This document shows positions 797 to 44,085 of a stretch of DNA of 44,085 nucleotides, piece by piece. The stretch's first letter is position 1. The number at the start of each line of letters is the position of its first letter. The notes beneath the pieces are model-generated. The model ran no database searches and was not told the origin of the DNA. It saw only the letters and a program-made list of their open reading frames with translations. Position numbers and translations under genes: made by a program. Source of the stretch: Planoprotostelium fungivorum (lineage: Eukaryota; Evosea; Variosea; Cavosteliida; Cavosteliaceae); the NCBI GenBank assembly GCA_003024175.1, contig MDYQ01000391.1, forward strand, positions 1 through 44,085, written 5' to 3'.

Positions 797-2464
797 CTCG
801 ATCGACCGTATCATCACTATGAACAATGATGAGACTGTCTAGTCACTTTCGGGACGTTCAGCACATTGCAACGCACGTTTTGATATAAAAAACAGTATCA
901 TACAGTGAAGTGGTCGTGCTGTGGATTTAAAATACCGCAAAAACATGTATTTCGACAATATCTCTTCGCGCACACGCAAACACACGTTGCAAAAATCATA
1001 TCAATGTACTTTAGAATATTCTGCATCGATTGATGTATCATACACGGTAGTACAAGCAATATTATGATATGAAAAGCATAAATCAAAACAATGCGGAGCT
1101 TGACCCTCGAAAAAAACCGTTTGTACCAAAGGGGGGACCATGCTAGATTTCAAAATCGAAAGTCTAAACCTTAAGCCCCCCCCCTCGATTTCGGCAAAGT
1201 GTGAAGAAATCCACTCGATCGACCGTATCATCACTATGAACAATGATGAGACTGTCTAGTCACTTTCGGGACGTTCAGCACATTGCAACGCACGTTTTGA
1301 TATACAAAACAGTATCATACAGTGAAGTGGTCGTGCTGTGCATTTAAAATACCGCAAAAACATGTATTTCGACAATATCTCTTCGCGCACACGCAAACAC
1401 ACGTTGCAAAAATCATATCAATGTACTTTAGAATATTCTGCATCGATTGATGTATCATACACGGTAGTACAAGCAATATTATGATATGAAAAGCATAAAT
1501 CAAAACAATGCGGAGCTTGACCCTCGAAAAAAACCGTTTGTACCAAAGGGGGGACCATGCTAGATTTCAAAATCGAAAGTCTAAACCTTAAGCCACCCCC
1601 CTCGATTTCGGCAAAGTGTGAAGAAATCCACTCGATCGACCGTATCATCACTATGAACAATCATGAGACTGTCTAGTCACTTTCGGGACGTTCAGCACAT
1701 TGCAACGCACGTTTTGATATACAAAACAGTATCATACAGTGAAGTGGTCGTGCTGTGGATTTAAAATACCGCAAAAACATGTATTTCGACAATATCTCTT
1801 CGCGCACACGCAAACACACGTTGCAAAAATCATATCAATGTACTTTAGAATATTCTGCATCGATTGATGTATCATACACGGTAGTACAAGCAATATTATG
1901 ATATGAAAAGCATAAATCAAAACAATGCGGAGCTTGACCCTCGAAAAAAACCGTTTGTACCAAAGGGGGGACCATGCTAGATTTCAAAATCGAAAGTCTA
2001 AACCTTAAGCCACCCCCCTCGATTTCGGCAAAGTGTGAAGAAATCCACTCGATCGACCGTATCATCACTATGAACAATGATGAGGCTGTCTAGTCACTTT
2101 CGGGACGTTCAGCACATTGCAACGCACGTTTTGATATACAAAACAGTATCATACAGTGAAGTGGTCGTGCTGTGGATTTAAAATACCGCAAAAACATGTA
2201 TTTCGACAATATCTCTTCGCGCACACGCAAACACACGTTGCAAAAATCATATCAATGTACTTTAGAATATTCTGCATCGATTGATGTATCATACACGGTA
2301 GTACAAGCAATATTATGATATGAAAAGCATAAATCAAAACAATGCGGAGCTTGACCCTCGAAAAAAACCGTTTGTACCAAAGGGGGGACCATGCTAGATT
2401 TCAAAATCGAAAGTCTAAACCTTAAGCCACCCCCCTCGATTTCGGCAAAGTGTGAAGGAATCCA

Positions 2465-2881
2465 CTCGATCGACCGTATCATCACTATGAACAATGATGA
2501 GACTGTCTAGTCACTTTCGGGACGTTCAGCACATTGCAACGCACGTTTTGATATACAAAACAGTATCATACAGTGAAGTGGTCGTGCTGTGGATTTAAAA
2601 TACCGCAAAAACATGTATTTCGACAATATCTCTTCGCGCACACGCAAACACACGTTGCAAAAATCATATCAATGTACTTTAGAATATTCTGCATCGATTG
2701 ATGTATCATACACGGTAGTACAAGCAATATTATGATATGAAAAGCATAAATCAAAACAATGCGGAGCTTGACCCTCGAAAAAAACCGTTTGTACCAAAGG
2801 GGGGACCATGCTAGATTTCAAAATCGAAAGTCTAAACCTTAAGCCACCCCCCTCGATTTCGGCAAAGTGTGAAGAAATCCA
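2465..2881. repeat. Consensus-identical 417-bp monomer (reference unit)
   Basis: This unit shows no difference from the majority base at any position I checked; 9971-10387, 27313-27729 and 37091-37507 are the same. Landmarks by offset from the unit start: GTATCAT at 11, 98 and 238; TTGCAACG near 69 with its complement CGTTGCAA near 188; TCATATCA near 199 with its complement TGATATGA near 268; A7 near 313; AGGGGGG at 333-339 with its complement CCCCCCT at 382-388. The 10-bp direct repeat GTATCATACA at offsets 98 and 238 is where the one deletion in the array occurred. I do not recognise the family. Confidence 0.85.
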
Positions 2882-5800
2882 CTCGATCGACCGTATCATC
2901 ACTATGAACAATGATGAGACTATCTAGTCACTTTCGGGACGTTCAGCACATTGCAACGCACGTTTTGATATACAAAACAGTATCATACAGTGAAGTGGTC
3001 GTGCTGTGGATTTAAAATACCGCAAAAACATGTATTTCGACAATATCTCTTCGCGCACACGCAAACACACGTTGCAAAAATCATATCAATGTACTTTAGA
3101 ATATTCTGCATCGATTGATGTATCATACACGGTAGTACAAGCAATATTATGATATGAAAAGCATAAATCAAAACAATGCGGAGCTTGACCCTCGAAAAAA
3201 ACCGTTTGTACCAAAGGGGGGACCATGCTAGATTTCAAAATCGAAAGACTAAACCTTAAGCCACCCCCCTCGATTTCGGCAAAGTGTGAAGAAATCCACT
3301 CGATCGACCGTATCATCACTATGAACAATGATGAGACTGTCTAGTCACTTTCGGGACGTTCAGCACATTGCAACGCACGTTTTGATATACAAAACAGTAT
3401 CATACAGTGAAGTGGTCGTGCTGTGGATTTAAAATACCGCAAAAACATGTATTTCGACAATATCTCTTCGCGCACACGCAAACACACGTTGCAAAAATCA
3501 TATCAATGTACTTTAGAATATTCTGCATCGATTGATGTATCATACACGGTAGTACAAGCAATATTATGATATGAAAAGCATAAATCAAAACAATGCGGAG
3601 CTTGACCCTCGAAAAAAACCGTTTGTACCAAAGGGGGGACCATGCTAGATTTCAAAATCGAAAGTGTAAACCTTAAGCCACCCCCCTCGATTTCGGCAAA
3701 GTGTGAAGAAATCCACTCGATCGACCGTATCATCACTATGAACAATGATGAGACTGTCTAGTCACTTTCGGGACGTTCAGCACATTGCAACGCACGTTTT
3801 GATATACAAAACAGTATCATACAGTGAAGTGGTCGTGCTGTGGATTTAAAATACCGCAAAAACATGTATTTCGACAATATCTCTTCGCGCACACGCAAAC
3901 ACACGTTGCAAAAATCATATTAATGTACTTTAGAATATTCTGCATCGATTGATGTATCATACACGGTAGTACAAGCAATATTATGATATGAAAAGCATAA
4001 ATCAAAACAATGCGGAGCTTGACCCTCGAAAAAAACCGTTTGTACCAAAGGGGGGACCATGCTAGATTTCAAAATCGAAAGTCTAAACCTTAAGCCACCC
4101 CCCTCGATTTCGGCAAAGTGTGAAGAAATCCACTCGATCGACCGTATCATCACTATGAACAATGATGAGACTGTCTAGTCACTCTCGGGACGTTCAGCAC
4201 ATTGCAACGCACGTTTTGATATACAAAACAGTATCATACAGTGAAGTGGTCGTGCTGTGGATTTAAAATACCGCAAAAACATGTATTTCGACAATATCTC
4301 TTCGCGCACACGCAAACACACGTTGCAAAAATCATATCAATGTACTTTAGAATATTCTGCATCGATTGATGTATCATACACGGTAGTACAAGCAATATTA
4401 TGATATGAAAAGCATAAATCAAAACAATGCGGAGCTTGACCCTCGAAAAAAACCGTTTGTACCAAAGGGGGGACCATGCTAGATTTCAAAATCGAAAGTC
4501 TAAACCTTAAGCCACCCCCCTCGATTTCGGCAAAGTGTGAAGAAATCCACTCGATCGACCGTATCATCACTATGAACAATGATGAGACTGTCTAGTCACT
4601 TTCGTGACGTTCAGCACATTGCAACGCACGTTTTGATATACAAAACAGTATCATACAGTGAAGTGGTCGTGCTGTGGATTTAAAATACCGCAAAAACATG
4701 TATTTCGACAATATCTCTTCGCGCACACGCAAACACACGTTGCAAAAATCATATCAATGTACTTTAGAATATTCTGCATCGATTGATGTATCATACACGG
4801 TAGTACAAGCAATATTATGATATGAAAAGCATAAATCAAAACAATGCGGAGCTTGACCCTCGAAAAAAACCGTTTGTACCAAAGGGGGGACCATGCTAGA
4901 TTTCAAAATCGAAAGTCTAAACCTTAAGCCACCCCCCTCGATTTCGGCAAAGTGTGAAGAAATCTACTCGATCGACCGTATCATCACTATGAACAATGAT
5001 GAGACTGTCTAGTCACTTTCGGGACGTTCAGCACATTGCAACGCACGTTTTGATATACAAAACAGTATCATACAGTGAAGTGGTCGTGCTGTGGATTTAA
5101 AATACCGCAAAAACATGTATTTCGACAATATCTCTTCGCGCACACGCAAACACACGTTGCAAAAATCATATCAATGTACTTTAGAATATTCTGCATCGAT
5201 TGATGTATCATACACGGTAGTACAAGCAATATTATGATATGAAAAGCATAAATCAAAACAATGCGGAGCTTGACCCTCGAAAAAAACCGTTTGTACCAAA
5301 GGGGGGACCATGCTAGATTTCAAAATCGAAAGTCTAAACCCTAAGCCACCCCCCTCGATTTCGGCAAAGTGTGAAGAAATCCACTCGATCGACCGTATCA
5401 TCACTATGAACAATGATGAGACTGTCTAGTCACTTTCGGGACGTTCAGAACATTGCAACGCACGTTTTGATATACAAAACAGTATCATACAGTGAAGTGG
5501 TCGTGCTGTGGATTTAAAATACCGCAAAAACATGTATTTCGACAATATCTCTTCGCGCACACGCAAACACACGTTGCAAAAATCATATCAATGTACTTTA
5601 GAATATTCTGCATCGATTGATGTATCATACACGGTAGTACAAGCAATATTATGATATGAAAAGCATAAATCAAAACAATGCGGAGCTTGACCCTCGAAAA
5701 AAACCGTTTGTACCAAAGGGGGGACCATGCTAGATTTCAAAATCGAAAGTCTAAACCTTAAGCCACCCCCCTCGATTTCGGCAAAGTGTGAAGAAATCCA

Positions 5801-8800
5801 CTCGATCGACCGTATCATCACTATGAACAATGATGAGACTGTCTAGTCACTTTCGGTACGTTCAGCACATTGCAACGCACGTTTTGATATACAAAACAGT
5901 ATCATACAGTGAAGTGGTCGTGCTGTGGATTTAAAATACCGCAAAAACATGTATTTCGACAATATCTCTTCGCGCACACGCAAACACACGTTGCAAAAAT
6001 CATATCAATGTACTTTAGAATATTCTGCATCGATTGATGTATCATACACGGTAGTACAAGCAATATTATGATATGAAAAGCATAAATCAAAACAATGCGG
6101 AGCTTGACCCTCGAAAAAAACCGTTTGTACCAAAGGGGGGACCATGCTAGATTTCAAAATCGAAAGTCTAAACCTTAAGCCACCCCCCTCGATTTCGGCA
6201 AAGTGTGAAGAAATCCACTCGATCGACCGTATCATCACTATGAACAATGATGAGACTGTCTAGTCACTTTCGAGACGTTCAGCACATTGCAACGCACGTT
6301 TTGATATACAAAACAGTATCATACAGTGAAGTGGTCGTGCTGTGGATTTAAAATACCGCAAAAACATGTATTTCGACAATATCTCTTCGCGCACACGCAA
6401 ACACACGTTGCAAAAATCATATCAATGTACTTTAGAATATTCTGCATCGATTGATGTATCATACACGGTAGTACAAGCAATATTATGATATGAAAAGCAT
6501 AAATCAAAACAATGCGGAGCTTGACCCTCGAAAAAAACCGTTTGTACCAAAGGGGGGACCATGCTAGATTTCAAAATCGAAAGTCTAAACCTTAAGCCAC
6601 CCCCCTCGATTTCGGCAAAGTGTGAAGAAATCCACTCGATCGACCGTATCATCACTATGAACAATGATGAGACTGTCTAGTCACTTTCGGGACGTTCAGC
6701 ACATTGCAACGCACGTTTTGATATACAAAACAGTATAATACAGTGAAGTGGTCGTGCTGTGGATTTAAAATACCGCAAAAACATGTATTTCGACAATATC
6801 TCTTCGCGCACACGCAAACACACGTTGCAAAAATCATATCAATGTACTTTAGAATATTCTGCATCGATTGATGTATCATACACGGTAGTACAAGCAATAT
6901 TATGATATGAAAAGCATAAATCAAAACAATGCGGAGCTTGACCCTCGAAAAAAACCGTTTGTACCAAAGGGGGGACCATGCTAGATTTCAAAATCGAAGG
7001 TCTAAACCTTAAGCCACCCCCCTCGATTTCGGCAAAGTGTGAAGAAATCCACTCGATCGACCGTATCATCACTATGAACAATGATGAGACTGTCTAGTCA
7101 CTTTCGGGACGTTCAGCACATTGCAACGCACGTTTTGATATACAAAACAGTATCATACAGTGAAGTGGTCGTGCTGTGGATTTAAAATACCGCAAAAACA
7201 TGTATTTCGACAATATCTCTTCGCGCACACGCAAACACACGTTGCAAAAATCATATCAATGTACTTTAGAATATTCTGCATCGATTGATGTATCATACAC
7301 GGTAGTACAAGCAATATTATGATATGAAAAGCATAAATCAAAACAATGCGGAGCTTGACCCTCGAAAAAAACCGTTTGTACCAAAGGGGGGACCATGCTA
7401 GATTTCAAAATCGAAAGTCTAAACCTTAAGCAACCCCCCTCGATTTCGGCAAAGTGTGAAGAAATCCACTCGATCGACCGTATCATCACTATGAACAATG
7501 ATGAGACTGTCTAGTCACTTTCGGGACGTTCAGCACATTGCAACGCACGTTTTGATATACAAAACAGTATCATACAGTGAAGTGGTCGTGCTGTGGATTT
7601 AAAATACCGCAAAAACATGTATTTCGACAATATCTCTTCGCGCACACGCAAACACACGTTGCAAAAATCATATCAATGTACTTTAGAATATTCTGCATCG
7701 ATTGATGTATCATACACGGTAGTACAAGCAATATTATGATATGAAAAGCATAAATCAAAACAATGCGGAGCTTGACCCTCGAAAAAAACCGTTTGTACCA
7801 AAGGGGGGACCATGCTAGATTTCAAAATCGAAAGTCTAAACCTTAAGCGACCCCCCTCGATTTCGGCAAAGTGTGAAGAAATCCACTCGATCGACCGTAT
7901 CATCACTATGAACAATGATGAGACTGTCTAGTCACTTTCGGGACGTTCAGCACATTGCAACGCACGTTTTGATATACAAAACAGTATCATACAGTGAAGT
8001 GGTCGTGCTGTGGATTTAAAATACCGCAAAAACATGTATTTCGACAATATCTCTTCGCGCACACGCAAACACACGTTGCAAAAATCATATCAATGTACTT
8101 TAGAATATTCTGCATCGATTGATGTATCATACACGGTAGTACAAGCAATATTATGATATGAAAAGCATAAATCAAATCAATGCGGAGCTTGACCCTCGAA
8201 AAAAACCGTTTGTACCAAAGGGGGGACCATGCTAGATTTCAAAATCGAAAGTCTAAACCTTAAGCCACCCCCCTCGATTTCGGCAAAGTGTGAAGAAATC
8301 CACTCGATCGACCGTATCATCACTATGAACAATGATGAGACTGTCTAGTCACTTTCGGGACGTTCAGCACATTGCAACGCACGTTTTGATATACAAAACA
8401 GTATCATACAGTGAAGTGGTCGTGCTGTGGATTTAAAATACCGCAAAAACATGTATTTCGACAATATCTCTTCGCGCACACGCAAACACACGTTGCAAAA
8501 ATCATATCAATGTACTTTAGAATATTCTGCATCGATTGATGTATCATACGCGGTAGTACAAGCAATATTATGATATGAAAAGCATAAATCAAAACAATGC
8601 GGAGCTTGACCCTCGAAAAAAACCGTTTGTACCAAAGGGGGGACCATGCTAGATTTCAAAATCGAAAGTCTAAACCTTAAGCCACCCCCCTCGATTTCGG
8701 CAAAGTGTGAAGAAATCCACTCGATCGACCGTATCATCACTATGAACAATGATGAGACTGTCTAGTCACTTTCGGGACGTTCAGCACATTGCAACGCACG

Positions 8801-11800
8801 TTTTGATATACAAAACAGTATGATACAGTGAAGTGGTCGTGCTGTGGATTTAAAATACCGCAAAAACATGTATTTCGACAATATCTCTTCGCGCACACGC
8901 AAACACACGTTGCAAAAATCATATCAATGTACTTTAGAATATTCTGCATCGATTGATGTATCATACACGGTAGTACAAGCAATATTATGATATGAAAAGC
9001 ATAAATCAAAACAATGCGGAGCTTGACCCTCGAAAAAAACCGTTTGTACCAAAGGGGGGACCATGCTAGATTTCAAAATCGAAAGTCTAAACCTTAAGCC
9101 ACCCCCCTCGATTTCGGCAAAGTGTGAAGAAATCCACTCGATCGACCGTATCATCACTATGAACAATGATGAGACTGTCTAGTCACTTTCGGGACGTTCA
9201 GCACATTGCAACGCACGTTTTGATATACAAAACAGTATCATACAGTGAAGTGGTCGTGCTGTGGATTTAAAGTACCGCAAAAACATGTATTTCGACAATA
9301 TCTCTTCGCGCACACGCAAACACACGTTGCAAAAATCATATCAATGTACTTTAGAATATTCTGCATCGATTGATGTATCATACACGGTAGTACAAGCAAT
9401 ATTATGATATGAAAAGCATAAATCAAAACAATGCGGAGCTTGACCCTCGAAAAAAACCGTTTGTACCAAAGGGGGGACCATGCTAGATTTCAAAATCGAA
9501 AGTCTAAACCTTAAGCCACCCCCCTCGATTTCGGCAAAGTGTGAAGAAATCCACTCGATCGACCGTATCATCACTATGAACAATGATGAGACTGTCTAGT
9601 CACTTTCGGGACGTTCAGCACACTGCAACGCACGTTTTGATATACAAAACAGTATCATACAGTGAAGTGGTCGTGCTGTGGATTTAAAATACCGCAAAAA
9701 CATGTATTTCGACAATATCTCTTCGCGCACACGCAAACACACGTTGCAAAAATCATATCAATGTACTTTAGAATATTCTGCATCGATTGATGTATCATAC
9801 ACGGTAGTACAAGCAATATTATGATATGAAAAGCATAAATCAAAACAATGCGGAGCTTGACCCTCGAAAAAAACCGTTTGTACCAAAGGGGGGACCATGC
9901 TAGATTTCAAAATCGAAAGTCTAAACCTTAAGCCACCCCCCTCGATTTCGGCGAAGTGTGAAGAAATCCACTCGATCGACCGTATCATCACTATGAACAA
10001 TGATGAGACTGTCTAGTCACTTTCGGGACGTTCAGCACATTGCAACGCACGTTTTGATATACAAAACAGTATCATACAGTGAAGTGGTCGTGCTGTGGAT
10101 TTAAAATACCGCAAAAACATGTATTTCGACAATATCTCTTCGCGCACACGCAAACACACGTTGCAAAAATCATATCAATGTACTTTAGAATATTCTGCAT
10201 CGATTGATGTATCATACACGGTAGTACAAGCAATATTATGATATGAAAAGCATAAATCAAAACAATGCGGAGCTTGACCCTCGAAAAAAACCGTTTGTAC
10301 CAAAGGGGGGACCATGCTAGATTTCAAAATCGAAAGTCTAAACCTTAAGCCACCCCCCTCGATTTCGGCAAAGTGTGAAGAAATCCACTCGTTCGACCGT
10401 ATCATCACTATGAACAATGATGAGACTGTCTAGTCACTTTCGGGACGTTCAGCACATTGCAACGCACGTTTTGATATACAAAACAGTATCATACAGTGAA
10501 GTGGTCGTGCTGTGGATTTAAAATACCGCAAAAACATGTATTTCGACAATATCTCTTCGCGCACACGCAAACACACGTTGCAAAAATCATATCAATGTAC
10601 TTTAGAATATTCTGCATCGATTGATGTATCATACACGGTAGTACAAGCAATATTATGATATGAAAAGCATAAATCAAAACAATGCGGAGCTTGACCCTCG
10701 AAAAAAACCGTTTGTACCAAAGGGGGGACCATGCTAGATTTCAAAATCGAAAGTCTAAACCTTAAGCCACCCCCCTCGATTTCGGCAAAGTGTGAAGAAA
10801 TCCACTCGATCGACCGTATCATCACTATAAACAATGATGAGACTGTCTAGTCACTTTCGGGACGTTCAGCACATTGCAACGCACGTTTTGATATACAAAA
10901 CAGTATCATACAGTGAAGTGGTCGTGCTGTGGATTTAAAATACCGCAAAAACATGTATTTCGACAATATCTCTTCGCGCACACGCAAACACACGTTGCAA
11001 AAATCATATCAATGTACTTTAGAATATTCTGCATCGATTGATGTATCATACACGGTAGTACAAGCAATATTATGATATGAAAAGCATAAATCAAAACAAT
11101 GCGGAGCTTGACCCTCGAAAAAAACCGTTTGTACCAAAGGGGGGACCATGCTAGATTTCAAAATCGAAAGTCTAAACCTTAAGCCACCCCCCTCGATTTC
11201 GGCAAAGTGTGAAGAAATCCACTCGATCGACCGTATCATCACTATGAACAACGATGAGACTGTCTAGTCACTTTCGGGACGTTCAGCACATTGCAACGCA
11301 CGTTTTGATATACAAAACAGTATCATACAGTGAAGTGGTCGTGCTGTGGATTTAAAATACCGCAAAAACATGTATTTCGACAATATCTCTTCGCGCACAC
11401 GCAAACACACGTTGCAAAAATCATATCAATGTACTTTAGAATATTCTGCATCGATTGATGTATCATACACGGTAGTACAAGCAATATTATGATATGAAAA
11501 GCATAAATCAAAACAATGCGGAGCTTGACCCTCGAAAAAAACCGTTTGTACCAAAGGGGGGACCATGCTAGATTTCAAAATCGAAAGTCTAAACCTTAAG
11601 CCACCCCCCTCGATTTCGGCAAAGTGTGAAGAAATCCACTCGATCGACCGTATCATCACTATGAACAATGATGAGACTGTCTAGTCACTTTCGGGACGTT
11701 CAGCACGTTGCAACGCACGTTTTGATATACAAAACAGTATCATACAGTGAAGTGGTCGTGCTGTGGATTTAAAATACCGCAAAAACATGTATTTCGACAA

Positions 11801-12055
11801 TATCTCTTCGCGCACACGCAAACACACGTTGCAAAAATCATATCAATGTACTTTAGAATATTCTGCATCGATTGATGTATCATACACGGTAGTACAAGCA
11901 ATATTATGATATGAAAAGCATAAATCAAAACAATGCGGAGCTTGACCCTCGAAAAAAACCGTTTGTACCAAAGGGGGGACCATGCTAGATTTCAAAATCG
12001 AAAGTCTAAACCTTAAGCCACCCCCCTCGATTTCGGCAAAGTGTGAAGAAATCCA

Positions 12056-12332
12056 CTCGACCGACCGTATCATCACTATGAACAATGATGAGACTGTCTA
12101 GTCACTTTCGGGACGTTCAGCACATTGCAACGCACGTTTTGATATACAAAACAGTATCATACACGGTAGTACAAGCAATATTATGATATGAAAAGCATAA
12201 ATCAAAACAATGCGGAGCTTGACCCTCGAAAAAAACCGTTTGTACCAAAGGGGGGTCCATGCTAGATTTCAAAATCGAAAGTCTAAACCTTAAGCCACCC
12301 CCCTCGATTTCGGCAAAGTGTGAAGAAATCCA
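12056..12332. repeat. Truncated satellite unit, 140-bp internal deletion
   Basis: This is the only unit of non-standard length: 277 bp, with offsets 98 to 237 missing. The breakpoint lies in GTATCATACA at 12154-12163, a 10-bp sequence normally present twice, 140 bp apart, in each unit. One copy remains. That is the pattern expected from slippage, single-strand annealing or unequal exchange between short direct repeats. The unit also carries two substitutions (12061 and 12256). Confidence 0.95.
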
Positions 12333-15300
12333 CTCGATCGACCGTATCATCACTATGAACAATGATGAGACTGTCTAGTCACTTTCGGGACGTTCAGCAC
12401 ATTGCAACGCACGTTTTGATATACAAAACAGTATCATACAGTGAAGTGGTCGTGCTGTGGATTTAAAATACCGCAAAAACATGTATTTCGACAATATCTC
12501 TTCGCGCACACGCAAACACACGTTGCAAAAATCATATCAATGTACTTTAGAATATTCTGCATCGATTGATGTATCATACACGGTAGTACAAGCAATATTA
12601 TGATGTGAAAAGCATAAATCAAAACAATGCGGAGCTTGACCCTCGAAAAAAACCGTTTGTACCAAAGGGGGGACCATGCTAGATTTCAAAATCGAAAGTC
12701 TAAACCTTAAGCCACCCCCCTCGATTTCGGCAAAGTGTGAAGAAATCCACTCGATCGACCGTATCATCACTATGAACAATGATGAGACTGTCTAGTCACT
12801 TTCGGGACGTTCAGCACATTGCAACGCACGTTTTGATATACAAAACAGTATCATACAGGGAAGTGGTCGTGCTGTGGATTTAAAATACCGCAAAAACATG
12901 TATTTCGACAATATCTCTTCGCGCACACGCAAACACACGTTGCAAAAATCATATCAATGTACTTTAGAATATTCTGCATCGATTGATGTATCATACACGG
13001 TAGTACAAGCAATATTATGATATGAAAAGCATAAATCAAAACAATGCGGAGCTTGACCCTCGAAAAAAACCGTTTGTACCAAAGGGGGGACCATGCTAGA
13101 TTTCAAAATCGAAAGTCTAAACCTTAAGCCACCCCCCTCGATTTCGGCAAAGTGTGAAGAAATCCACTCGATCGCCCGTATCATCACTATGAACAATGAT
13201 GAGACTGTCTAGTCACTTTCGGGACGTTCAGCACATTGCAACGCACGTTTTGATATACAAAACAGTATCATACAGTGAAGTGGTCGTGCTGTGGATTTAA
13301 AATACCGCAAAAACATGTATTTCGACAATATCTCTTCGCGCACACGCAAACACACGTTGCAAAAATCATATCAATGTACTTTAGAATATTCTGCATCGAT
13401 TGATGTATCATACACGGTAGTACAAGCAATATTATGATATGAAAAGCATAAATCAAAACAATGCGGAGCTTGACCCTCGAAAAAAACCGTTTGTACCAAA
13501 GGGGGGACCATGCTAGATTTCAAAATCAAAAGTCTAAACCTTAAGCCACCCCCCTCGATTTCGGCAAAGTGTGAAGAAATCCACTCGATCGACCGTATCA
13601 TCACTATGAACAATGATGAGACTGTCTAGTCACTTTCGGGACGTTCAGCACATTGCAACGCACGTTTTGATATACAAAACAGTATCATACAGTGAAGTGG
13701 TCGTGCTGTGGATTTAAAATACCGCAAAAACATGTATTTCGACAATATCTCTTCGCGCACACGCAAACACACGTTGCAAAAATCATATCAATGTACTTTA
13801 GAATATTCTGCATCGATTGATGTATCATACACGGTAGTACAAGCAATATTATGATATGAAAATCATAAATCAAAACAATGCGGAGCTTGACCCTCGAAAA
13901 AAACCGTTTGTACCAAAGGGGGGACCATGCTAGATTTCAAAATCGAAAGTCTAAACCTTAAGCCACCCCCCTCGATTTCGGCAAAGTGTGAAGAAATCCA
14001 CTCGATCGACCGTATCATCACTATGAACAATGATGAGACTGTCTAGTCACTTTCGGGACGTTCAGCACATTGCAACGCACGTTTTGATATACAAAACAGT
14101 ATCATACAGTGAAGTGGTCGTGCTGTGGATTTAAAATACCGCAAAAACATGTATTTCGACAATATCTCTTCGCACACACGCAAACACACGTTGCAAAAAT
14201 CATATCAATGTACTTTAGAATATTCTGCATCGATTGATGTATCATACACGGTAGTACAAGCAATATTATGATATGAAAAGCATAAATCAAAACAATGCGG
14301 AGCTTGACCCTCGAAAAAAACCGTTTGTACCAAAGGGGGGACCATGCTAGATTTCAAAATCGAAAGTCTAAACCTTAAGCCACCCCCCTCGATTTCGGCA
14401 AAGTGTGAAGAAAACCACTCGATCGACCGTATCATCACTATGAACAATGATGAGACTGTCTAGTCACTTTCGCGACGTTCAGCACATTGCAACGCACGTT
14501 TTGATATACAAAACAGTATCATACAGTGAAGTGGTCGTGCTGTGGATTTAAAATACCGCAAAAACATGTATTTCGACAGTATCTCTTCGCGCACACGCAA
14601 ACACACGTTGCAAAAATCATATCAATGTACTTTAGAATATTCTGCATCGATTGATGTATCATACACGGTAGTACAAGCAATATTATGATATGAAAAGCAT
14701 AAATCAAAACAATGCGGAGCTTGACCCTCGAAAAAAACCGTTTGTACCAAAGGGGGGACCATGCTAGATTTCAAAATCGAAAGTCTAAACCTTAAGCCAC
14801 CCCCCTCGATTTCGGCAAAGTGTGAAGAAATCCACTCGATCGACCGTATCATCACTATGAACAATGATGAGACTGTCTAGTCACTTTCAGGACGTTCAGC
14901 ACATTGCAACGCACGTTTTGATATACAAAACAGTATCATACAGTGAAGTGGTCGTGCTGTGGATTTAAAATACCGCAAAAACATGTATTTCGACAATATC
15001 TCTTCGCGCACACGCAAACACACGTTGCAAAAATCATATCAATGTACTTTAGAATATTCTGCATCGATTGATGTATCATACACGGTAGTACAAGCAATAT
15101 TATGATATGAAAAGCATAAATCAAAACAATGCGGAGCTTGACCCTCGAAAAAAACCGTTTGTACCAAAGGGGGGACCATGCTAGATTTCAAAATCGAAAG
15201 TCTAAACCTTAAGCCACCCCCCTCGATTTCGGCAAAGTGTGAAGAAATCCACTCGATCGACCGTATCATCACTATGAACAATGATGAGACTGTCTAGTCA

Positions 15301-26846: not shown

Positions 26847-26895
26847 ATGGAAGATGAGTTAAGCTATCGTTGATTTTTTTAAGTGCGAATATGCG
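26847..26895. other. Edge between short repeats and 417-bp satellite (copy 2)
   Basis: This is the same sequence as 747-796 except for one T fewer in the T run (7 instead of 8). The degenerate monomer end, AAGTGCGAATATGCG, is identical. So is the register at which the first satellite unit begins (26896 here, 797 at copy 1). Confidence 0.85.
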
Positions 26896-27772: not shown

Positions 27773-28178
27773 ATGGGATGTCGTTTTACCCATAGTGGCC
27801 AATGGTTTACTTACAGAAGTGTAAAAAGTGTAAATTACCATTGCGGTACTATGGGATGTCGTTTTACCCATAGTGGCCAATGGTTTACTTACAGAAGTGT
27901 AAAAAGTGTAAATTACCATTACAGTACTATGGGATATCGTTTTCCCCATAGTGGCCAATGGTTTACTTACAGAAGTGTAAAAAGTGTAAATTACCATTAC
28001 AGTACTATGGGATATCGTTTTACCCATAGTGGCCAATGGTTTACTTACAGAAGTGTAAAAAGTGTAAATTACCATTACAGTACTATGGGATATCGTTTTG
28101 TCCATAGTGGCCAGTGGTTTACTTACAGAAGTGTAAAAAGTGTAAATTACCATTGCGGTACTATGGGATGTCGTTTTA
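27773..28178. repeat. 78-bp tandem repeat block C, five copies plus a partial
   Basis: Units start at 27773, 27851, 27929, 28007 and 28085, and a 16-bp partial begins at 28163. Several variants are shared between copies, as in ordinary tandem repeats: TTACCATTGCGGTACT against TTACCATTACAGTACT, and ATGTCG against ATATCG. The last 32 bp (28147-28178) are identical to the first 32 bp of block B (26597-26628). One frame on each strand is open throughout, which follows from the period being divisible by 3. Confidence 0.92.
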
Positions 28179-28179
28179 N
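28179..28179. other. Single N at a repeat-family switch
   Basis: An uncalled base lies where a 78-bp unit stops after 16 bp and the 417-bp satellite resumes at offset 263. It is probably a contig join. Confidence 0.9.
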
Positions 28180-31100: not shown

Positions 31101-34100
31101 TTATGATATGAAAAGCATAAATCAAAACAATGCGGAGCTTGACCCTCGAAAAAAACCGTTTGTACCAAAGGGGGGACCATGCTAGATTTCAAAATCGAAA
31201 GTCTAAACCTTAAGCCACCCCCCTCGATTTCGGCAAAGTGTGAAGAAATCCACTCGATCGACCGTATCATCACTATGAACAATGATGAGACTGTCTAGTC
31301 ACTTTCGGGACGTTCAGCACATTGCAACGCACGTTTTGATGTACAAAACAGTATCATACAGTGAAGTGGTCGTGCTGTGGATTTAAAATACCGCAAAAAC
31401 ATGTATTTCGACAATATCTCTTCGCGCACACGCAAACACACGTTGCAAAAATCATATCAATGTACTTTAGAATATTCTGCATCGATTGATGTATCATACA
31501 CGGTAGTACAAGCAATATTATGATATGAAAAGCATAAATCAAAACAATGCGGAGCTTGACCCTCGAAAAAAACCGTTTGTACCAAAGGGGGGACCATGCT
31601 AGATTTCAAAATCGAAAGTCTAAACCTTAAGCCACCCCCCTCGATTTCGGCAAAGTGTGAAGAAATCGACTCGATCGACCGTATCATCACTATGAACAAT
31701 GATGAGACTGTCTAGTCACTTTCGGGACGTTCAGCACATCGCAACGCACGTTTTGATATACAAAACAGTATCATACAGTGAAGTGGTCGTGCTGTGGATT
31801 TAAAATACCGCAAAAACATGTATTTCGACAATATCTCTTCGCGCACACGCAAACACACGTTGCAAAAATCATATCAATGTACTTTAGAATATTCTGCATC
31901 GATTGATGTATCATACACGGTAGTACAAGCAATATTATGATATGAAAAGCATAAATCAAAACAATGCGGAGCTTGACCCTCGAAAAAAACCGTTTGTACC
32001 AAAGGAGGGACCATGCTAGATTTCAAAATCGAAAGTCTAAACCTTAAGCCACCCCCCTCGATTTCGGCAAAGTGTGAAGAAATCCACTCGATCGACCGTA
32101 TCATCACTATGAACAATGATGAGACTGTCTAGTCACTTTCGGGACGTTCAGCACATTGCAACGCACGTTTTGATATACAAAACAGTATCATACAGTGAAG
32201 TGGTCGTGCTGTGGATTTAAAATACCGCAAAAACATGTATTTCGACAATATCTCTTCGCGCACACGCAAACACACGTTGCAAAAATCATATCAATGTACT
32301 TTAGAATATTCTGCATCGAATGATGTATCATACACGGTAGTACAAGCAATATTATGATATGAAAAGCATAAATCAAAACAATGCGGAGCTTGACCCTCGA
32401 AAAAAACCGTTTGTACCAAAGGGGGGACCATGCTAGATTTCAAAATCGAAAGTCTAAACCTTAAGCCACCCCCCTCGATTTCGGCAAAGTGTGAAGAAAT
32501 CCACTCGATCGACCGTATCATCACTATGAACAATGATGAGACTGTCTAGTCACTTTCGGGACGTTCAGCACATTGCAACGCACGTTTTGATATACAAAAC
32601 AGTATCATACAGTGAAGTGGGCGTGCTGTGGATTTAAAATACCGCAAAAACATGTATTTCGACAATATCTCTTCGCGCACACGCAAACACACGTTGCAAA
32701 AATCATATCAATGTACTTTAGAATATTCTGCATCGATTGATGTATCATACACGGTAGTACAAGCAATATTATGATATGAAAAGCATAAATCAAAACAATG
32801 CGGAGCTTGACCCTCGAAAAAAACCGTTTGTACCAAAGGGGGGACCATGCTAGATTTCAAAATCGAAAGTCTAAACCTTAAGCCACCCCCCTCGATTTCG
32901 GCAAAGTGTGAAGAAATCCACTCGATCGACCGTATCATCACTATGAACAATGATGAGACTGTCTAGTCACTTCCGGGACGTTCAGCACATTGCAACGCAC
33001 GTTTTGATATACAAAACAGTATCATACAGTGAAGTGGTCGTGCTGTGGATTTAAAATACCGCAAAAACATGTATTTCGACAATATCTCTTCGCGCACACG
33101 CAAACACACGTTGCAAAAATCATATCAATGTACTTTAGAATATTCTGCATCGATTGATGTATCATACACGGTAGTACAAGCAATATTATGATATGAAAAG
33201 CATAAATCAAAACAATGCGGAGCTTGACCCTCGAAAAAAACCGTTTGTACCAAAGGGGGGACCATGCTAGATTTCAAAATCGAAAGTCTAAACCTTAAGC
33301 CACCCCCCTCGATTTCGGCAAAGTGTGAAGAAATCCACTCGATCGACCGTATCATCACTATGAACAATGATGAGACTGTCTAGTCACTTTCGGGACATTC
33401 AGCACATTGCAACGCACGTTTTGATATACAAAACAGTATCATACAGTGAAGTGGTCGTGCTGTGGATTTAAAATACCGCAAAAACATGTATTTCGACAAT
33501 ATCTCTTCGCGCACACGCAAACACACGTTGCAAAAATCATATCAATGTACTTTAGAATATTCTGCATCGATTGATGTATCATACACGGTAGTACAAGCAA
33601 TATTATGATATGAAAAGCATAAATCAAAACAATGCGGAGCTTGACCCTCGAAAAAAACCGTTTGTACCAAAGGGTGGACCATGCTAGATTTCAAAATCGA
33701 AAGTCTAAACCTTAAGCCACCCCCCTCGATTTCGGCAAAGTGTGAAGAAATCCACTCGATCGACCGTATCATCACTATGAACAATGATGAGACTGTCTAG
33801 TCACTTTCGGGACGTTCAGCACATTGCAACGCACGTTTTGATATACAAAACAGTATCATACAGTGAAGTGGTCGTGCTGTGGATTTAAAATACCGCAAAA
33901 ACATGTATTTCGACAATATCTCTTCGCGCACACGCAAACACACGTTGCAAAAATCATATCAATGTACTTTAGAATATTCTGCATCGATTGATGTATCATA
34001 CACGGTAGTACAAGCAATATTATGATATGAAAAGCATAAATCAAAACAATGCGGAGCTTGACCCTCGAAAAAAACCGTTTGTACCAAAGGGGGGACCATG

Positions 34101-37100
34101 CTAGATTTCAAAATCGAAAGTCTAACCCTTAAGCCACCCCCCTCGATTTCGGCAAAGTGTGAAGAAATCCACTCGATCGACCGTATCATCACTATGAACA
34201 ATGATGAGACTGTCTAGTCACTTTCGGGACGTTCAGCACATTGCAACGCACGTTTTGATATACAAAACAGTATCATACAGTGAAGTGGTCGTGCTGTGGA
34301 TTTAAAATACCGCAAAAACATGTATTTCGACAATATCTCTTCGCGCACACGCAAACACACGTTGCAAAAATCATATCAATGTACTTTAGAATATTCTGCA
34401 TCGATTGATGTATCATACACGGTAGTACAAGCAATATTATGATATGAAAAGCATAAATCAAAACAATGCGGAGCTTGACCCTCGAAAAAAACCGTTTGTA
34501 CCAAAGGGGGGACCATGCTAGATTCCAAAATCGAAAGTCTAAACCTTAAGCCACCCCCCTCGATTTCGGCAAAGTGTGAAGAAATCCACTCGATCGACCG
34601 TATCATCACTATGAACAATGATGAGACTGTCTAGTCACTTTCGGGACGTTCAGCACATTGCAACGCACGTTTTGATATACAAAACAGTATCATACAGTGA
34701 AGTGGTCGTGCTGTGGATTTAAAATACCGCAAAAACATGTATTTCGACAATATCTCTTCGCGCACACGCAAACACACGTTGCAAAAATCATATCAATGTA
34801 CTTTAGAATATTCTGCATCGATTGATGTATCATACACGGTAGTACAAGCAATATTATGATATGAAAAGCATAAATCAAAACAATGCGGAGCTTGACCCTC
34901 GAAAAAAACCGTTTGTACCAAAGGGGGGACCATGCTAGATTTCAAAATCGAAAGTCTAAACCTTAAGCCTCCCCCCTCGATTTCGGCAAAGTGTGAAGAA
35001 ATCCACTCGATCGACCGTATCATCACTATGAACAATGATGAGACTGTCTAGTCACTTTCGGGACGTTCAGCACATTGCAACGCACGTTTTGATATACAAA
35101 ACAGTATCATACAGTGAAGTGGTCGTGCTGTGGATTTAAAATACCGCAAAAACATGTATTTCGACAATATCTCTTCGCGCACACGCAAACACACGTTGCA
35201 AAAATCATATCAATGTACTTTAGAATATTCTGCATCGATTGATGTATCATACACGGTAGTACAAGCAATATTATGATATGAAAAGCATAAATCAAAACAA
35301 TGCGGAGCTTGACCCTCGAAAAAAACCGTTTGTACCAAAGGGGGGACCATGCTAGATTTCAAAATCGAAAGTCTAAACCTTAAGCCACCCCCCTCGATTT
35401 CTGCAAAGTGTGAAGAAATCCACTCGATCGACCGTATCATCACTATGAACAATGATGAGACTGTCTAGTCACTTTCGGGACGTTCAGCACATTGCAACGC
35501 ACGTTTTGATATACAAAACAGTATCATACAGTGAAGTGGTCGTGCTGTGGATTTAAAATACCGCAAAAACATGTATTTCGACAATATCTCTTCGCGCACA
35601 CGCAAACACACGTTGCAAAAATCATATCAATGTACTTTAGAATATTCTGCATCGATTGATGTATCATACACGGTAGTACAAGCAATATTATGATATGAAA
35701 AGCATAAATCAAAACAATGCGGAGCTTGACCCTCAAAAAAAACCGTTTGTACCAAAGGGGGGACCATGCTAGATTTCAAAATCGAAAGTCTAAACCTTAA
35801 GCCACCCCCCTCGATTTCGGCAAAGTGTGAAGAAATCCACTCGATCGACCGTATCATCACTATGAACAATGATGAGACTGTCTAGTCACTTTCGGGACGT
35901 TCAGCACATTGCAACGCACGTTTTTATATACAAAACAGTATCATACAGTGAAGTGGTCGTGCTGTGGATTTAAAATACCGCAAAAACATGTATTTCGACA
36001 ATATCTCTTCGCGCACACGCAAACACACGTTGCAAAAATCATATCAATGTACTTTAGAATATTCTGCATCGATTGATGTATCATACACGGTAGTACAAGC
36101 AATATTATGATATGAAAAGCATAAATCAAAACAATGCGGAGCTTGACCCTCGAAAAAAACCGTTTGTACCAAAGGGGGGACCATGCTAGATTTCAAAAAC
36201 GAAAGTCTAAACCTTAAGCCACCCCCCTCGATTTCGGCAAAGTGTGAAGAAATCCACTCGATCGACCGTATCATCACTATGAACAATGATGAGACTGTCT
36301 AGTCACTTTCGGGACGTTCAGCACATTGCAACGCACGTTTTGATATACAAAACAGTATCATACAGTGAAGTGGTCGTGCTGTGGATTTAAAATACCGCAA
36401 AAACATGTATTTCGACAATATCTCTTCGCGCACACGCAAACACACGTTGCAAAAATCATATCAATGTACTTTAGAATATTCTGCATCGATTGATGTATCA
36501 TACACGGTAGTACAAGCAATATTATGATATGAAAAGCATAAATCAAAACAATGCGGAGCTTGACCCTCGAAAAAAACCGTTTGTACCAAAGGGGGGACCA
36601 TGCTAGATTTCAAAATCGAAAGTCTAAACCTTAAGCCACCCCCCTCGATTTCGGCAAAGTGTGAAGATATCCACTCGATCGACCGTATCATCACTATGAA
36701 CAATGATGAGACTGTCTAGTCACTTTCGGGACGTTCAGCACATTGCAACGCACGTTTTGATATACAAAACAGTATCATACAGTGAAGTGGTCGTGCTGTG
36801 GATTTAAAATACCGCAAAAACATGTATTTCGACAATATCTCTTCGCGCACACGCAAACACACGTTGCAAAAATCATATCAATGTACTTTAGAATATTCTG
36901 CATCGACTGATGTATCATACACGGTAGTACAAGCAATATTATGATATGAAAAGCATAAATCAAAACAATGCGGAGCTTGACCCTCGAAAAAAACCGTTTG
37001 TACCAAAGGGGGGACCATGCTAGATTTCAAAATCGAAAGTCTAAACCTTAAGCCACCCCCCTCGATTTCGGCAAAGTGTGAAAAAATCCACTCGATCGAC

Positions 37101-40100
37101 CGTATCATCACTATGAACAATGATGAGACTGTCTAGTCACTTTCGGGACGTTCAGCACATTGCAACGCACGTTTTGATATACAAAACAGTATCATACAGT
37201 GAAGTGGTCGTGCTGTGGATTTAAAATACCGCAAAAACATGTATTTCGACAATATCTCTTCGCGCACACGCAAACACACGTTGCAAAAATCATATCAATG
37301 TACTTTAGAATATTCTGCATCGATTGATGTATCATACACGGTAGTACAAGCAATATTATGATATGAAAAGCATAAATCAAAACAATGCGGAGCTTGACCC
37401 TCGAAAAAAACCGTTTGTACCAAAGGGGGGACCATGCTAGATTTCAAAATCGAAAGTCTAAACCTTAAGCCACCCCCCTCGATTTCGGCAAAGTGTGAAG
37501 AAATCCACTCGATCGACCGTATCATCACTATGAACAATGATGAGACTGTCTAGTCACTTTCGGGACGTTCAACACATTGCAACGCACGTTTTGATATACA
37601 AAACAGTATCATACAGTGAAGTGGTCGTGCTGTGGATTTAAAATACCGCAAAAACATGTATTTCGACAATATCTCTTCGCGCACACGCAAACACACGTTG
37701 CAAAAATCATATCAATGTACTTTAGAATATTCTGCATCGATTGATGTATCATACACGGTAGTACAAGCAATATTATGATATGAAAAGCATAAATCAAAAC
37801 AATGCGGAGCTTGACCCTCGAAGAAAACCGTTTGTACCAAAGGGGGGACCATGCTAGATTTCAAAATCGAAAGTCTAAACCTTAAGCCACCCCCCTCGAT
37901 TTCGGCAAAGTGTGAAGAAATCCACTCGATCGACCGTATCATCACTATGAACAATGATGAGACTGTCTAGTCACTTTCGGGACGTTCAGCACATTGCAAC
38001 GCACGTTTTGATATACAAAACAGTATCATACAGTGAAGTGGTCGTGCTGTGGATTTAAAATACCGCAAAAACATGTATTTCGACAATATCTCTTCACGCA
38101 CACGCAAACACACGTTGCAAAAATCATATCAATGTACTTTAGAATATTCTGCATCGATTGATGTATCATACACGGTAGTACAAGCAATATTATGATATGA
38201 AAAGCATAAATCAAAACAATGCGGAGCTTGACCCTCGAAAAAAACCGTTTGTACCAAAGGGGGGACCATGCTAGATTTCAAAATCGAAAGTCTAAACCTT
38301 AAGCCACCCCCCTCGATTTCGGCAAAGTGTGAAGAAATCCACTCGATCGACCGTATCATCACTATGAACAATGATGAGACTGTCTAGTCACTTTCGGGAC
38401 GTTCAGCACATTGCAACGCACGTTTTGATATACAAAACAGTATCATACAGTGAAGTGGTCATGCTGTGGATTTAAAATACCGCAAAAACATGTATTTCGA
38501 CAATATCTCTTCGCGCACACGCAAACACACGTTGCAAAAATCATATCAATGTACTTTAGAATATTCTGCATCGATTGATGTATCATACACGGTAGTACAA
38601 GCAATATTATGATATGAAAAGCATAAATCAAAACAATGCGGAGCTTGACCCTCGAAAAAAACCGTTTGTACCAAAGGGGGGACCATGCTAGAGTTCAAAA
38701 TCGAAAGTCTAAACCTTAAGCCACCCCCCTCGATTTCGGCAAAGTGTGAAGAAATCCACTCGATCGACCGTATCATCACTATGAACAATGATGAGACTGT
38801 CTAGTCACTTTCGGGACGTTCAGCACATTGCAACGCACGTTTTGATATACAAAACAGTATCATACAGTGAAGTGGTCGTGCTGTGGATTTAAAATACCGC
38901 AAAAACATGTATTTCGACAATATCTCTTCGCGCACACGCAAACACACGTTGCAAAAATCATATCAATGTACTTTAGAATATTCTGCATCGATTGATGTAT
39001 CATACACGGTAGTACAAGCAATATTATGATATGAAAAGCATAAATCAAAACAATGCGGAGCTTGACCCTCGAAAAAAACCGTTTGTACCAAAGGGGGGAC
39101 CATGCTAGATTTCAAAATCGAAAGGCTAAACCTTAAGCCACCCCCCTCGATTTCGGCAAAGTGTGAAGAAATCCACTCGATCGACCGTATCATCACTATG
39201 AACAATGATGAGACTGTCTAGTCACTTTCGGGACGTTCAGCACATTGCAACGCACGTTTTGATATACAAAACAGTATCATACAGTGAAGTGGTCGTGCTG
39301 TGGATTTAAAATACCGCAAAAACATGTATTTCGACAATATCTCTTCGCGCACACGCAAACACACGTTGCAAAAATCATATCAATGTACTTTAGAATATTC
39401 TGCATCGATTGATGTATCATAAACGGTAGTACAAGCAATATTATGATATGAAAAGCATAAATCAAAACAATGCGGAGCTTGACCCTCGAAAAAAACCGTT
39501 TGTACCAAAGGGGGGACCATGCTAGATTGCAAAATCGAAAGTCTAAACCTTAAGCCACCCCCCTCGATTTCGGCAAAGTGTGAAGAAATCCACTCGATCG
39601 ACCGTATCATCACTATGAACAATGATGAGACTGTCTAGTCACTTTCGGGACGTTCAGCACATTGCAACGCACGTTTTGATATACAAAACAGTATCATACA
39701 GTGAAGTGGTCGTGCTGTGGATTTAAAATACCGCAAAAACATGTATTTCGACAATATCTCTTCGCGCACACGCAAACACACGTTGCAAAAATCATATCAA
39801 TGTACTTTAGAATATTCTGCATCGATTGATGTATCATACACGGTATTACAAGCAATATTATGATATGAAAAGCATAAATCAAAACAATGCGGAGCTTGAC
39901 CCTCGAAAAAAACCGTTTGTACCAAAGGGGGGACCATGCTAGATTTCAAAATCGAAAGTCTAAACCTTAAGCCACCCCCCTCGATTTCGGCAAAGTGTGA
40001 AGAAATCCACTCGATCGACCGTATCATCACTATGAACAATGATGAGACTGTCTAGTCACTTTCGGGACGTTCAGCACATTGCAACGCACGTTTTGATATA

Positions 40101-43100
40101 CAAAACAGTATCATACAGTGAAGTGGTCGTGCTGTGGATTTAAAATACCGCAAGAACATGTATTTCGACAATATCTCTTCGCGCACACGCAAACACACGT
40201 TGCAAAAATCATATCAATGTACTTTAGAATATTCTGCATCGATTGATGTATCATACACGGTAGTACAAGCAATATTATGATATGAAAAGCATAAATCAAA
40301 ACAATGCGGAGCTTGACCCTCGAAAAAAACCGTTTGTACCAAAGGGGGGACCATGCTAGATTTCAAAATCGAAAGTCTAAACCTTAAGCCACCCCCCTCG
40401 ATTTCGGCAAAGTGTGAAGAAATCCACTCGATCGACCGTATCATCACTATGAACAATGATGAGACTGTCTAGTCACTTTCGGGACGTTCAGCACATTACA
40501 ACGCACGTTTTGATATACAAAACAGTATCATACAGTGAAGTGGTCGTGCTGTGGATTTAAAATACCGCAAAAACATGTATTTCGACAATATCTCTTCGCG
40601 CACACGCAAACACACGTTGCAAAAATCATATCAATGTACTTTAGAATATTCTGCATCGATTGATGTATCATACACGGTAGTACAAGCAATATTATGATAT
40701 GAAAAGCATAAATCAAAACAATGCGGAGCTTGACCCTCGAAAAAAAACGTTTGTACCAAAGGGGGGACCATGCTAGATTTCAAAATCGAAAGTCTAAACC
40801 TTAAGCCACCCCCCTCGATTTCGGCAAAGTGTGAAGAAATCCACTCGATCGACCGTATCATCACTATGAACAATGATGAGACTGTCTAGTCACTTTCGGG
40901 ACGTTCAGCACATTGCAACGCACGTTTTGATATACAAAACAGTATCATACAGTGAAGTGGTCGTGCTGTGGATTTAAAATACCGCAAAAACATGTATTTC
41001 GACAATATCTCTTCGCGCACACGCAAACACACGTTGCAAAAATCATATCAATGTACTTTAGAATATTCTGCATCGATTGATGTATCATACACGGTAGTAC
41101 AAGCAATATTATGATATGAAAAGCATAAATCAAAACAATGCGGAGCTTGACCCTCGAAAAAAACCGTTTGTACCAAAGGGGGAACCATGCTAGATTTCAA
41201 AATCGAAAGTCTAAACCTTAAGCCACCCCCCTCGATTTCGGCAAAGTGTGAAGAAATCCACTCGATCGACCGTATCATCACTATGAACAATGATGAGACT
41301 GTCTAGTCACTTTCGGGACGTTCAGCACATTGCAACGCACGTTTTGATATACAAAACAGTATCATACAGTGAAGTGGTCGTGCTGTGGATTTAAAATACC
41401 GCAAAAACATGTATTTCGACAATATCTCTTCGCGCACACGCAAACACACGTTGCAAAAATCATATCAACGTACTTTAGAATATTCTGCATCGATTGATGT
41501 ATCATACACGGTAGTACAAGCAATATTATGATATGAAAAGCATAAATCAAAACAATGCGGAGCTTGACCCTCGAAAAAAACCGTTTGTACCAAAGGGGGG
41601 ACCATGCTAGATTTCAAAATCGAAAGTCTAAACCTTAAGCCACCCCCCTCGATTTCGGCAAAGTGTGAAGAAATCCACTCGATCGACCGTATCATCACTA
41701 TGAACAATGATGAGACTGTCTAGTCACTTTCGGGACGTTCAGCACATTGCAACGCACGTTTTGATATACAAAACAGTATCATACAGTGAAGTGGTCGTGC
41801 TGTGGATTTAAAATACCGCAAAAACATGTATTTCGACAATATCTCTTCGCGCACACGCAAACACACGTTGCAAAAATCATATCAATGTACTTTAGAATAT
41901 TCTGCATCGATTGATATATCATACACGGTAGTACAAGCAATATTATGATATGAAAAGCATAAATCAAAACAATGCGGAGCTTGACCCTCGAAAAAAACCG
42001 TTTGTACCAAAGGGGGGACCATGCTAGATTTCAAAATCGAAAGTCTAAACCTTAAGCCACCCCCCTCGATTTCGGCAAAGTGTGAAGAAATCCACTCGAT
42101 CGACCGTATCATCACTATGAACAATGATGAGACTGTCTAGTCACTTTCGGGACGTTCAGCACATTGCAACGCACTTTTTGATATACAAAACAGTATCATA
42201 CAGTGAAGTGGTCGTGCTGTGGATTTAAAATACCGCAAAAACATGTATTTCGACAATATCTCTTCGCGCACACGCAAACACACGTTGCAAAAATCATATC
42301 AATGTACTTTAGAATATTCTGCATCGATTGATGTATCATACACGGTAGTACAAGCAATATTATGATATGAAAAGCATAAATCAAAACAATGCGGAGCTTG
42401 ACCCTCGAAAAAAACCGTTTGTACCAAAGGGGGGACCATGCTAGATTTCAAAATCGAAAGTCTAAACCTTAAGCCACCCCCCTCGATTTCGGCAAAGTGT
42501 GAAGAAATCCACTCGATCGACCGTATCATCACTATGAACAATGATGAGACTGTCTAGTCACTTTCGGGACGTTCAGCACATTGCAACGCACGTTTTGACA
42601 TACAAAACAGTATCATACAGTGAAGTGGTCGTGCTGTGGATTTAAAATACCGCAAAAACATGTATTTCGACAATATCTCTTCGCGCACACGCAAACACAC
42701 GTTGCAAAAATCATATCAATGTACTTTAGAATATTCTGCATCGATTGATGTATCATACACGGTAGTACAAGCAATATTATGATATGAAAAGCATAAATCA
42801 AAACAATGCGGAGCTTGACCCTCGAAAAAAACCGTTTGTACCAAAGGGGGGACCATGCTAGATTTCAAAATCGAAAGTCTAAACCTTAAGCCACCCCCCT
42901 CGATTTCGTCAAAGTGTGAAGAAATCCACTCGATCGACCGTATCATCACTATGAACAATGATGAGACTGTCTAGTCACTTTCGGGACGTTCAGCACATTG
43001 CAACGCACGTTTTGATATACAAAACAGTATCATACAGTGAAGTGGTCGTGCTGTGGATTTAAAATACCGCAAAAACATGTATTTCGACAATATCTCTTCG

Positions 43101-44085
43101 CGCACACGCAAACACACGTTGCAAAAATCATATCAATGTACTTTAGAATATTCTGCATCGATTGATGTATCATACACGGTAGTACAAGCAATATTATGAT
43201 ATGAAAAGCATAAATCAAAACAATGCGGAGCTTGACCCTCGAAAAAAACCGTTTGTACCAAAGGGGGGACCATGCTAGATTTCAAAATCGAAAGTCTAAA
43301 CCTTAAGCCACCCCCCTCGATTTCGGAAAAGTGTGAAGAAATCCACTCGATCGACCGTATCATCACTATGAACAATGATGAGACTGTCTAGTCACTTTCG
43401 GGACGTTCAGCACATTGCAACGCACGTTTTGATATACAAAACAGTATCATACAGTGAAGTGGTCGTGCTGTGGATTTAAAATACCGCAAAAACATGTATT
43501 TCGACAATATCTCTTCGCGCACACGCAAACACACGTTGCAAAAATCATATCAATGTACTTTAGAATATTCTGCATCGATTGATGTATCATACACGGTAGT
43601 ACAAGCAATATTATGATATGAAAAGCATAAATCAAAACAATGCGGAGCTTGACCCTCGAAAAAAACCGTTTGTACCAAAAGGGGGACCATGCTAGATTTC
43701 AAAATCGAAAGTCTAAACCTTAAGCCACCCCCCTCGATTTCGGCAAAGTGTGAAGAAATCCACTCGATCGACCGTATCATCACTATGAACAATGATGAGA
43801 CTGTCTAGTCACTTTCGGGACGTTCAGCACATTGCAACGCACGTTTTGATATACAAAACAGTATCATACAGTGAAGTGGTCGTGCTGTGGATTTAAAATA
43901 CCGCAAAAACATGTATTTCGACAATATCTCTTCGCGCACACGCAAACACACGTTGCAAAAATCATATCAATGTACTTTAGAATATTCTGCATCGATTGAT
44001 GTATCATACACGGTAGTACAGGCAATATTATGATATGAAAAGCATAAATCAAAACAATGCGGAGCTTGACCCTCGAAAAAAACCG
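28180..44085. repeat. 417-bp satellite array 3 (37 full units plus two partials), continues beyond window
   Basis: A 154-bp partial (28180-28333) is followed by 37 units of exactly 417 bp from 28334 to 43762 and a 323-bp partial to the window end. Orientation and consensus are the same as array 1. There are no indels, and about 49 substitutions were counted by eye. The 80-codon minus-strand frame is broken by a nonsense change at 30313. If the intervening 1.6 kb is misplaced, this is the continuation of array 1 after a missing 178 bp, or 178 plus a multiple of 417. Confidence 0.97.

Follow-up and report, generated by a model that had tools for sequence, protein, structure and literature searches.

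A 417-bp ribosomal-spacer satellite whose array layout on a 44,085-bp contig is very probably a product of short-read assembly

Results

Organization of the contig

The window, i.e. the whole stretch of DNA that was analysed, corresponds to the complete contig C357 (44,085 bp). It belongs to an assembly of 36.86 Mb in 471 contigs, which is eukaryotic as judged by its 18S. A satellite with a unit of 417 bp fills the contig from position 797 to its end. This satellite is composed of four blocks, each of constant phase, and is interrupted by a 140-bp deletion at position 12154 and by two small pieces edged by single Ns (positions 26596, 27772 and 28179). The features are the following:

1-796, plus strand: flank to the left of the array, with near-unique spacer DNA and then minisatellites of 53, 50 and 78 bp (TRF rows; positions 1-750 match C346 at 98.5%)
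797-12153, plus strand: satellite block 1, 417-bp unit in constant phase, about one private substitution per 360 bp (phase map, tabulation and block statistics)
12154-26595, plus strand: satellite block 2, 417-bp unit, entered via a short unit of 277 bp (140-bp deletion at a direct repeat GTATCATACA; junction also in C346, 125 bp exact)
26596, no strand: single N between two contigs
26597-27771, plus strand: small contig, in which the 78-bp minisatellite section of the flank occurs a second time (26597-26895), with 876 bp of satellite (26896-27771)
27772, no strand: single N between two contigs
27773-28178, plus strand: small contig containing nothing but the 78-bp minisatellite, with 98% identity to the C346 flank
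28179, no strand: single N between two contigs
28180-44085, plus strand: last satellite block, 417-bp unit, running to the contig end

The flank segment 1-570, taken over its full length, has matches on C357 and C346 only. Inside the blocks the phase never changes, although homopolymers of 6 to 7 bases are present, and there is thus no net indel in them. The piece 26597-27771 repeats the left boundary of the array itself and the piece 27773-28178 holds the flank minisatellite alone; the middle of the array therefore contains contigs derived from the flank. The satellite of the first of these pieces (26896-27771) displays one substitution, followed by a variant-free tail of 557 bp (27215-27771).

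Relationship with the ribosomal DNA

The only other copy of the satellite among the matches listed is localized on C346 (17,120 bp). On the reverse strand of this contig we observe, in order, a flank matching positions 1-750 of the window (98.5%), 2,470 bp of satellite, degenerate units, the 18S and the 5.8S rRNA. The path from the flank to the 18S spans only about six satellite units. Since the satellite sits between the flank and the 18S, it belongs to the ribosomal intergenic spacer, to judge by the 18S side; on the far side of the flank, the stretches examined gave no Rfam rRNA match and no 28S match. We take the 417-bp repeat to be a genuine satellite of this spacer, of which the genome presumably has many copies. 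In this position it resembles the subrepeats of rDNA intergenic spacers and the satellites derived from them. A literature search, judged from titles, matched the 417-bp unit to no described family. The assembly contains at least one full-length match to the 5' end of the 18S (one among the matches listed), which is consistent with collapsed rDNA.

The regular satellite block of C346 contains six substitutions, separated by gaps of 314 to 444 bp, and all six are absent from the window. The degenerate edge unit of C346 shares with the window the junction of the 140-bp deletion (near position 12152, 125 bp of exact identity). In a comparison that set aside the out-of-register rows beside the deletion and beyond the array, some of which match window alleles by number, and that omitted most of the approximately 90 bases that separate the edge unit from the regular block, this edge unit also shares one clean substitution with the window (offset 74, A>G, position 29659); its three other clean substitutions (offsets 0, 11 and 346) are absent from the window. 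The exact stretches common to C357 and C346 measure 125 and 272 bp.

Private alleles

Each difference from the consensus of all units was tabulated over 42,581 bases, in the four in-phase blocks (797-12153, 12154-26595, 26896-27771 and 28180-44085). An earlier note on this DNA, based on a hand tally, had claimed that every substitution is private, and the full tabulation bears this out: the window contains 128 substitutions at 108 offsets of the unit, and these represent 128 distinct alleles (offset and base) out of 128. The count of repeated alleles that this note had suggested making gives zero within the window, and not a normal number of recurrences. Two offsets are hit three times, namely offset 55 with T, A and C (4605, 6273 and 14473) and offset 233 with G, A and C (20489, 32320 and 36907). 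Both were already read in this way in the note, as were offsets 206, 380, 403, 311, 353 and 340, and the coordinates and bases given for all eight are correct. The offsets hit twice, which had been put at about 15 and always with different bases, number 16, none of them sharing a base.

The resulting 22 same-site pairs include no pair sharing a base. This agrees with the former estimate of about 20 pairs without sharing where chance alone would give about a third, as approximately 7 to 9 shared pairs are expected. The expectation is 7.3 with equal chances for the alleles (P(0) = 7.5e-5) and 8.9 with the observed substitution spectrum, for which zero sharing was obtained in 0 of 50,000 draws. 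Same-site pairs as such occur about as often as chance predicts (23 observed against 21.4 expected when the six substitutions of C346 are included), so that sharing is the only feature that is missing. Consensus 100-mers recur up to 91 times, while the variants stay once-only. No description of such a once-only allele signature was found in a literature search judged from titles.

Concerning the nature of the variants, 70 of 134 are transitions, which is above the level of evenly random base errors and suggests that some of them are probably true mutations. Identity of the variant base with an adjacent consensus base is no more frequent than expected (53 cases in 134, expectation 57), there is no clear excess at CpG sites (17, expectation 14.1) and the variant offsets display no clear departure from uniformity (KS p = 0.065).

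Spacing of the variants

The gaps between successive variants form a set of 124, after one gap across the 140-bp deletion and two across Ns were left out. They extend from 59 to 489 bp with a coefficient of variation (CV) of 0.298, and only 17 of them are shorter than 240 bp. Among 20,000 simulations with exponential spacing the lowest CV was 0.72, and such spacing would keep all 124 gaps at or below 489 bp with a probability of only 2e-14. When the blocks are tiled into 99 units (leaving out the small piece 26896-27771), 2, 70, 25 and 2 units contain 0, 1, 2 and 3 variants, respectively (variance/mean 0.22; dispersion p = 2e-17). The exception to this regularity is a block end and not a gap, i.e. 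the 557 variant-free bases closing the piece 26896-27771. Adjacent gaps show no serial correlation, and gap size shows no trend with contig position (p = 0.49).

The hazard of meeting the next variant was calculated from 129 gaps (including 5 from C346) and the 5 run-out ends of blocks. It is of 0.0001-0.0009 per bp below 240 bp, of 0.004-0.009 per bp between 240 and 416 bp and of 0.044 per bp between 416 and 452 bp; over the whole 416-500 bp interval, which holds 37 events, it remains at about 0.044. Between 500 and 557 bp no event occurs, the 557-bp tail alone being still at risk. The step falls at one period of the satellite (416-417 bp), with 7 events in 1,473 bp at risk before it and 31 in 709 bp after it, which represents a 9.2-fold increase (p = 7e-10 with the run-out ends counted, p = 4e-10 without them). 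A free search for a change point above 360 bp gave 416 as the best position and 417 as the next. The step is repeated in each of the three blocks tested (p = 7e-5, 0.003 and 0.0026), the small piece 26896-27771, which has a single variant, lying outside this test. An earlier step of the hazard is observed near 240 bp (p = 1.6e-4).

Discussion

Real arrays as explanations of the layout

The rDNA spacer is a classic site of concerted evolution, and the units are highly homogeneous and located in such a spacer, as would be expected of a real array in its correct order under unequal exchange and gene conversion. Unequal exchange should however make neighbours share variants, as the earlier note had argued, and no same-allele pair is observed. 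This argument held in simulation: in each of 200 exchange arrays (mean of 154 variants) at least 122 same-allele pairs were found, and the mean CV of the gaps was 1.01 against the 0.30 observed. We therefore give ordinary concerted evolution a practically negligible probability for this contig. An array produced by a very recent amplification, for instance by rolling-circle copying of one unit, would have a star phylogeny in which the later mutations are private, and this would in principle cover both the all-private variants and the near-identical, indel-free units. Independent mutations should nevertheless share a base at about 7 of the 22 same-site pairs, where none does. Zero sharing occurred in 0.14% of 5,000 star simulations (not conditioned on 22 same-site pairs), the CV of the gaps was never below 0.75 and the maximum gap never below 1,021 bp, against 489 bp in the window. 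As the star phylogeny also offers no reason for the step at one period, it is very unlikely to account for the contig.

The maximum gap, near 490 bp, resembles a limit of insert size, and it could be supposed that the order of the contig is right, that paired reads linked variants present in a single copy and that the regular gaps reflect the distance that an insert can cross. A filter of this kind drops long gaps but cannot drop short ones, which are rare here, and it predicts a flat hazard whereas the observed hazard climbs with distance. Moreover, such a limit is not expected to set in only a few bases from the repeat period, and we consider this explanation very improbable. A copying process that counts laps, adding about one never-repeated substitution at each lap of a circular 417-bp template and thus bar-coding every unit, seems extremely unlikely.

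A proposed walk through the assembly graph

The layout of about 100 units in C357 is very probably an artefact, produced when a short-read assembler walked through the repeat. No variant is used twice, very probably because the assembly software circled through the repeat and consumed a new variant at each lap. In the graph of an assembly that would be of short-read origin, the consensus unit would form a closed ring and each rare variant a short side path, either a true low-copy variant or a sequencing error at high depth. The ring would be re-used freely and each side path taken once. After each variant the walk would keep to the consensus for about 240 bp, which may correspond to the reach of the reads or of the graph word carrying the variant. 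Beyond this distance an exit onto an unused side path would become possible, and the walk would be pushed off the consensus soon after a full lap. With side paths used once on a re-used ring, the contig would represent a catalogue of variant side paths and not the order of units in the chromosome. Such a walk is proposed in view of the alleles used only once in the regular blocks, the regular spacing, the period-locked step, the joins by single Ns and the partial flank found a second time. A mutation would not be expected to depend on where in the preceding unit the last variant lies; a path-finder fresh from one lap of the ring can sense this position.

Several observations speak against the walk. 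The step comes at 417 with no word size added, and among published assembler rules we know of none that would place it at exactly one period; the one proposed here was derived from these data. The escape rule would rarely leave a variant-free run such as the 557-bp end of 26896-27771. A shrinking pool of unused paths might lower the post-lap hazard along the contig, but this hazard does not fall (excess over one lap against position, Spearman 0.15, p = 0.40). Finally, the A>G at offset 74 and the 140-bp deletion junction recur in C346. The earlier note had described the pattern as a sampling without replacement in which each variant path is used exactly once. The sampling is in agreement with the sharing of 0 of 22 pairs, the under-dispersed spacing (CV of 0.30) and the one-period step, three features that do not fit the simulated genome histories, and the single-N joins and the flank copy in the middle of the array are in line with it as well; "exactly once" does not extend across contigs, given the substitution and the junction found again in the C346 edge unit.

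These data do not match a simple contig in which each k-mer appears once, for the word sizes usual with short reads: exact repeats within the satellite pieces reach a length of between 460 and 469 bp, and C357 and C346 share their 125- and 272-bp stretches. This suggests that a step of repeat resolution must be involved. Offsets 311, 232 and 206 are also hit twice in the same order with different bases (24320/24658/25049 and 30313/30651/31042). This looks like a deterministic walk, though the case was picked after the fact: chains of at least three offsets were absent from 200 gap shuffles at zero tolerance, and the p-values of the chain count were 0.075, 0.035 and 0.22 for tolerances of 3, 5 and 10 bases, respectively, which is not clearly unusual at 3 or 10.

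Among known systems, the misassembly of high-copy tandem repeats in short-read graphs resembles C357 in its re-used consensus with once-only low-copy branches, and resembles this assembly in the single assembled 18S (among the matches listed) and in the unmerged overlaps split by one N. Misassembly of this kind is usually described as a collapse, whereas the walk in C357 would have drawn the repeat out to about 100 units, each lap taking up about one variant. The satellite family is real, and the order, length and variant layout of C357 are very probably not evidence about the chromosome. Conclusions on how many copies the spacer satellite has, how its units are ordered or how it evolved should thus not be drawn from C357. 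We suggest that recurrent alleles at re-hit sites, together with a jump of the hazard at one period, could serve as a simple means of recognizing invented tandem arrays in draft genomes without recourse to reads.

Single-N joins and other stretches of the assembly

Five single Ns were examined on C425, C397 and C410. At four of them the end of the left sequence matches the start of the right one at 89-99.6%, yet the two are unmerged; at the fifth, on C397, the only match is an inner one. C410 carries three of the four overlap-like Ns, and as the start of this contig is itself repetitive, tandem copies could mimic an overlap there. In the window, similar sequence is found on both sides of the Ns at 26596 and 27772, with no clean end-to-start overlap, and no similar sequence is found across the join at 28179. 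The overlap-like single Ns look as when contigs with failed overlaps are scaffolded. According to PMC5368935, overlapping contigs are recorded by ALLPATHS-LG with negative gap sizes. Scaffolders may print such gaps as one N.

Twenty additional stretches of about 3 kb (19 contig starts and one inner stretch of C397) were taken from the 471 contigs. Single Ns are present in two of them and longer runs of N in none. No other long homogeneous array was found in these 20 stretches; tandem repeats of few copies are present among them.

Recurring variant offsets and the variant-free run of the satellite

In the 417-bp satellite, where variants are substitutions relative to the consensus of all units, the unit offsets 311, 232 and 206 carry consecutive variants at positions 24320, 24658 and 25049 and again at positions 30313, 30651 and 31042. 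The bases differ between the two chains at every one of the three offsets. No chain of this kind was obtained in 200 shuffles of the gaps with zero tolerance. The longest run of the window devoid of variants (27215-27771; 557 bp) constitutes the tail of the small piece bounded by single Ns (26597-27771), and it exceeds every gap between variants.

Borders of the array and the shared deletion

Minisatellites are present beside the array:

307-750, 26597-26850 and 27773-28178: minisatellites with periods of 53, 50 and 78 bp

The part made of the 78-bp minisatellite is longer in C346, another contig containing a copy of the satellite, than at the start of the window. A 277-bp unit at position 12154 shows a 140-bp deletion, which runs between two GTATCATACA copies of the unit. 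This deletion was detected once in the window and once in the edge unit of C346, where it is localized at the border of the array on the 18S side. At the far end of C346 (L003), the first 410 bases read on the reverse strand constitute a nearly perfect inverted repeat (94.9%), which may be a further artefact of a contig end.

Other contigs containing a single N

The contig C425 (L004), which bears COX1, displays a stretch of about 709 bp present twice, around a single N, and by eye it also continues into what resembles the 3' end of an rRNA as well as a reading frame of the F-box type. A second contig with 18S sequence, C397 (L017), carries a short 18S fragment (positions 9981-10069; 89 query bases), and a single N lies about 360 bases away.
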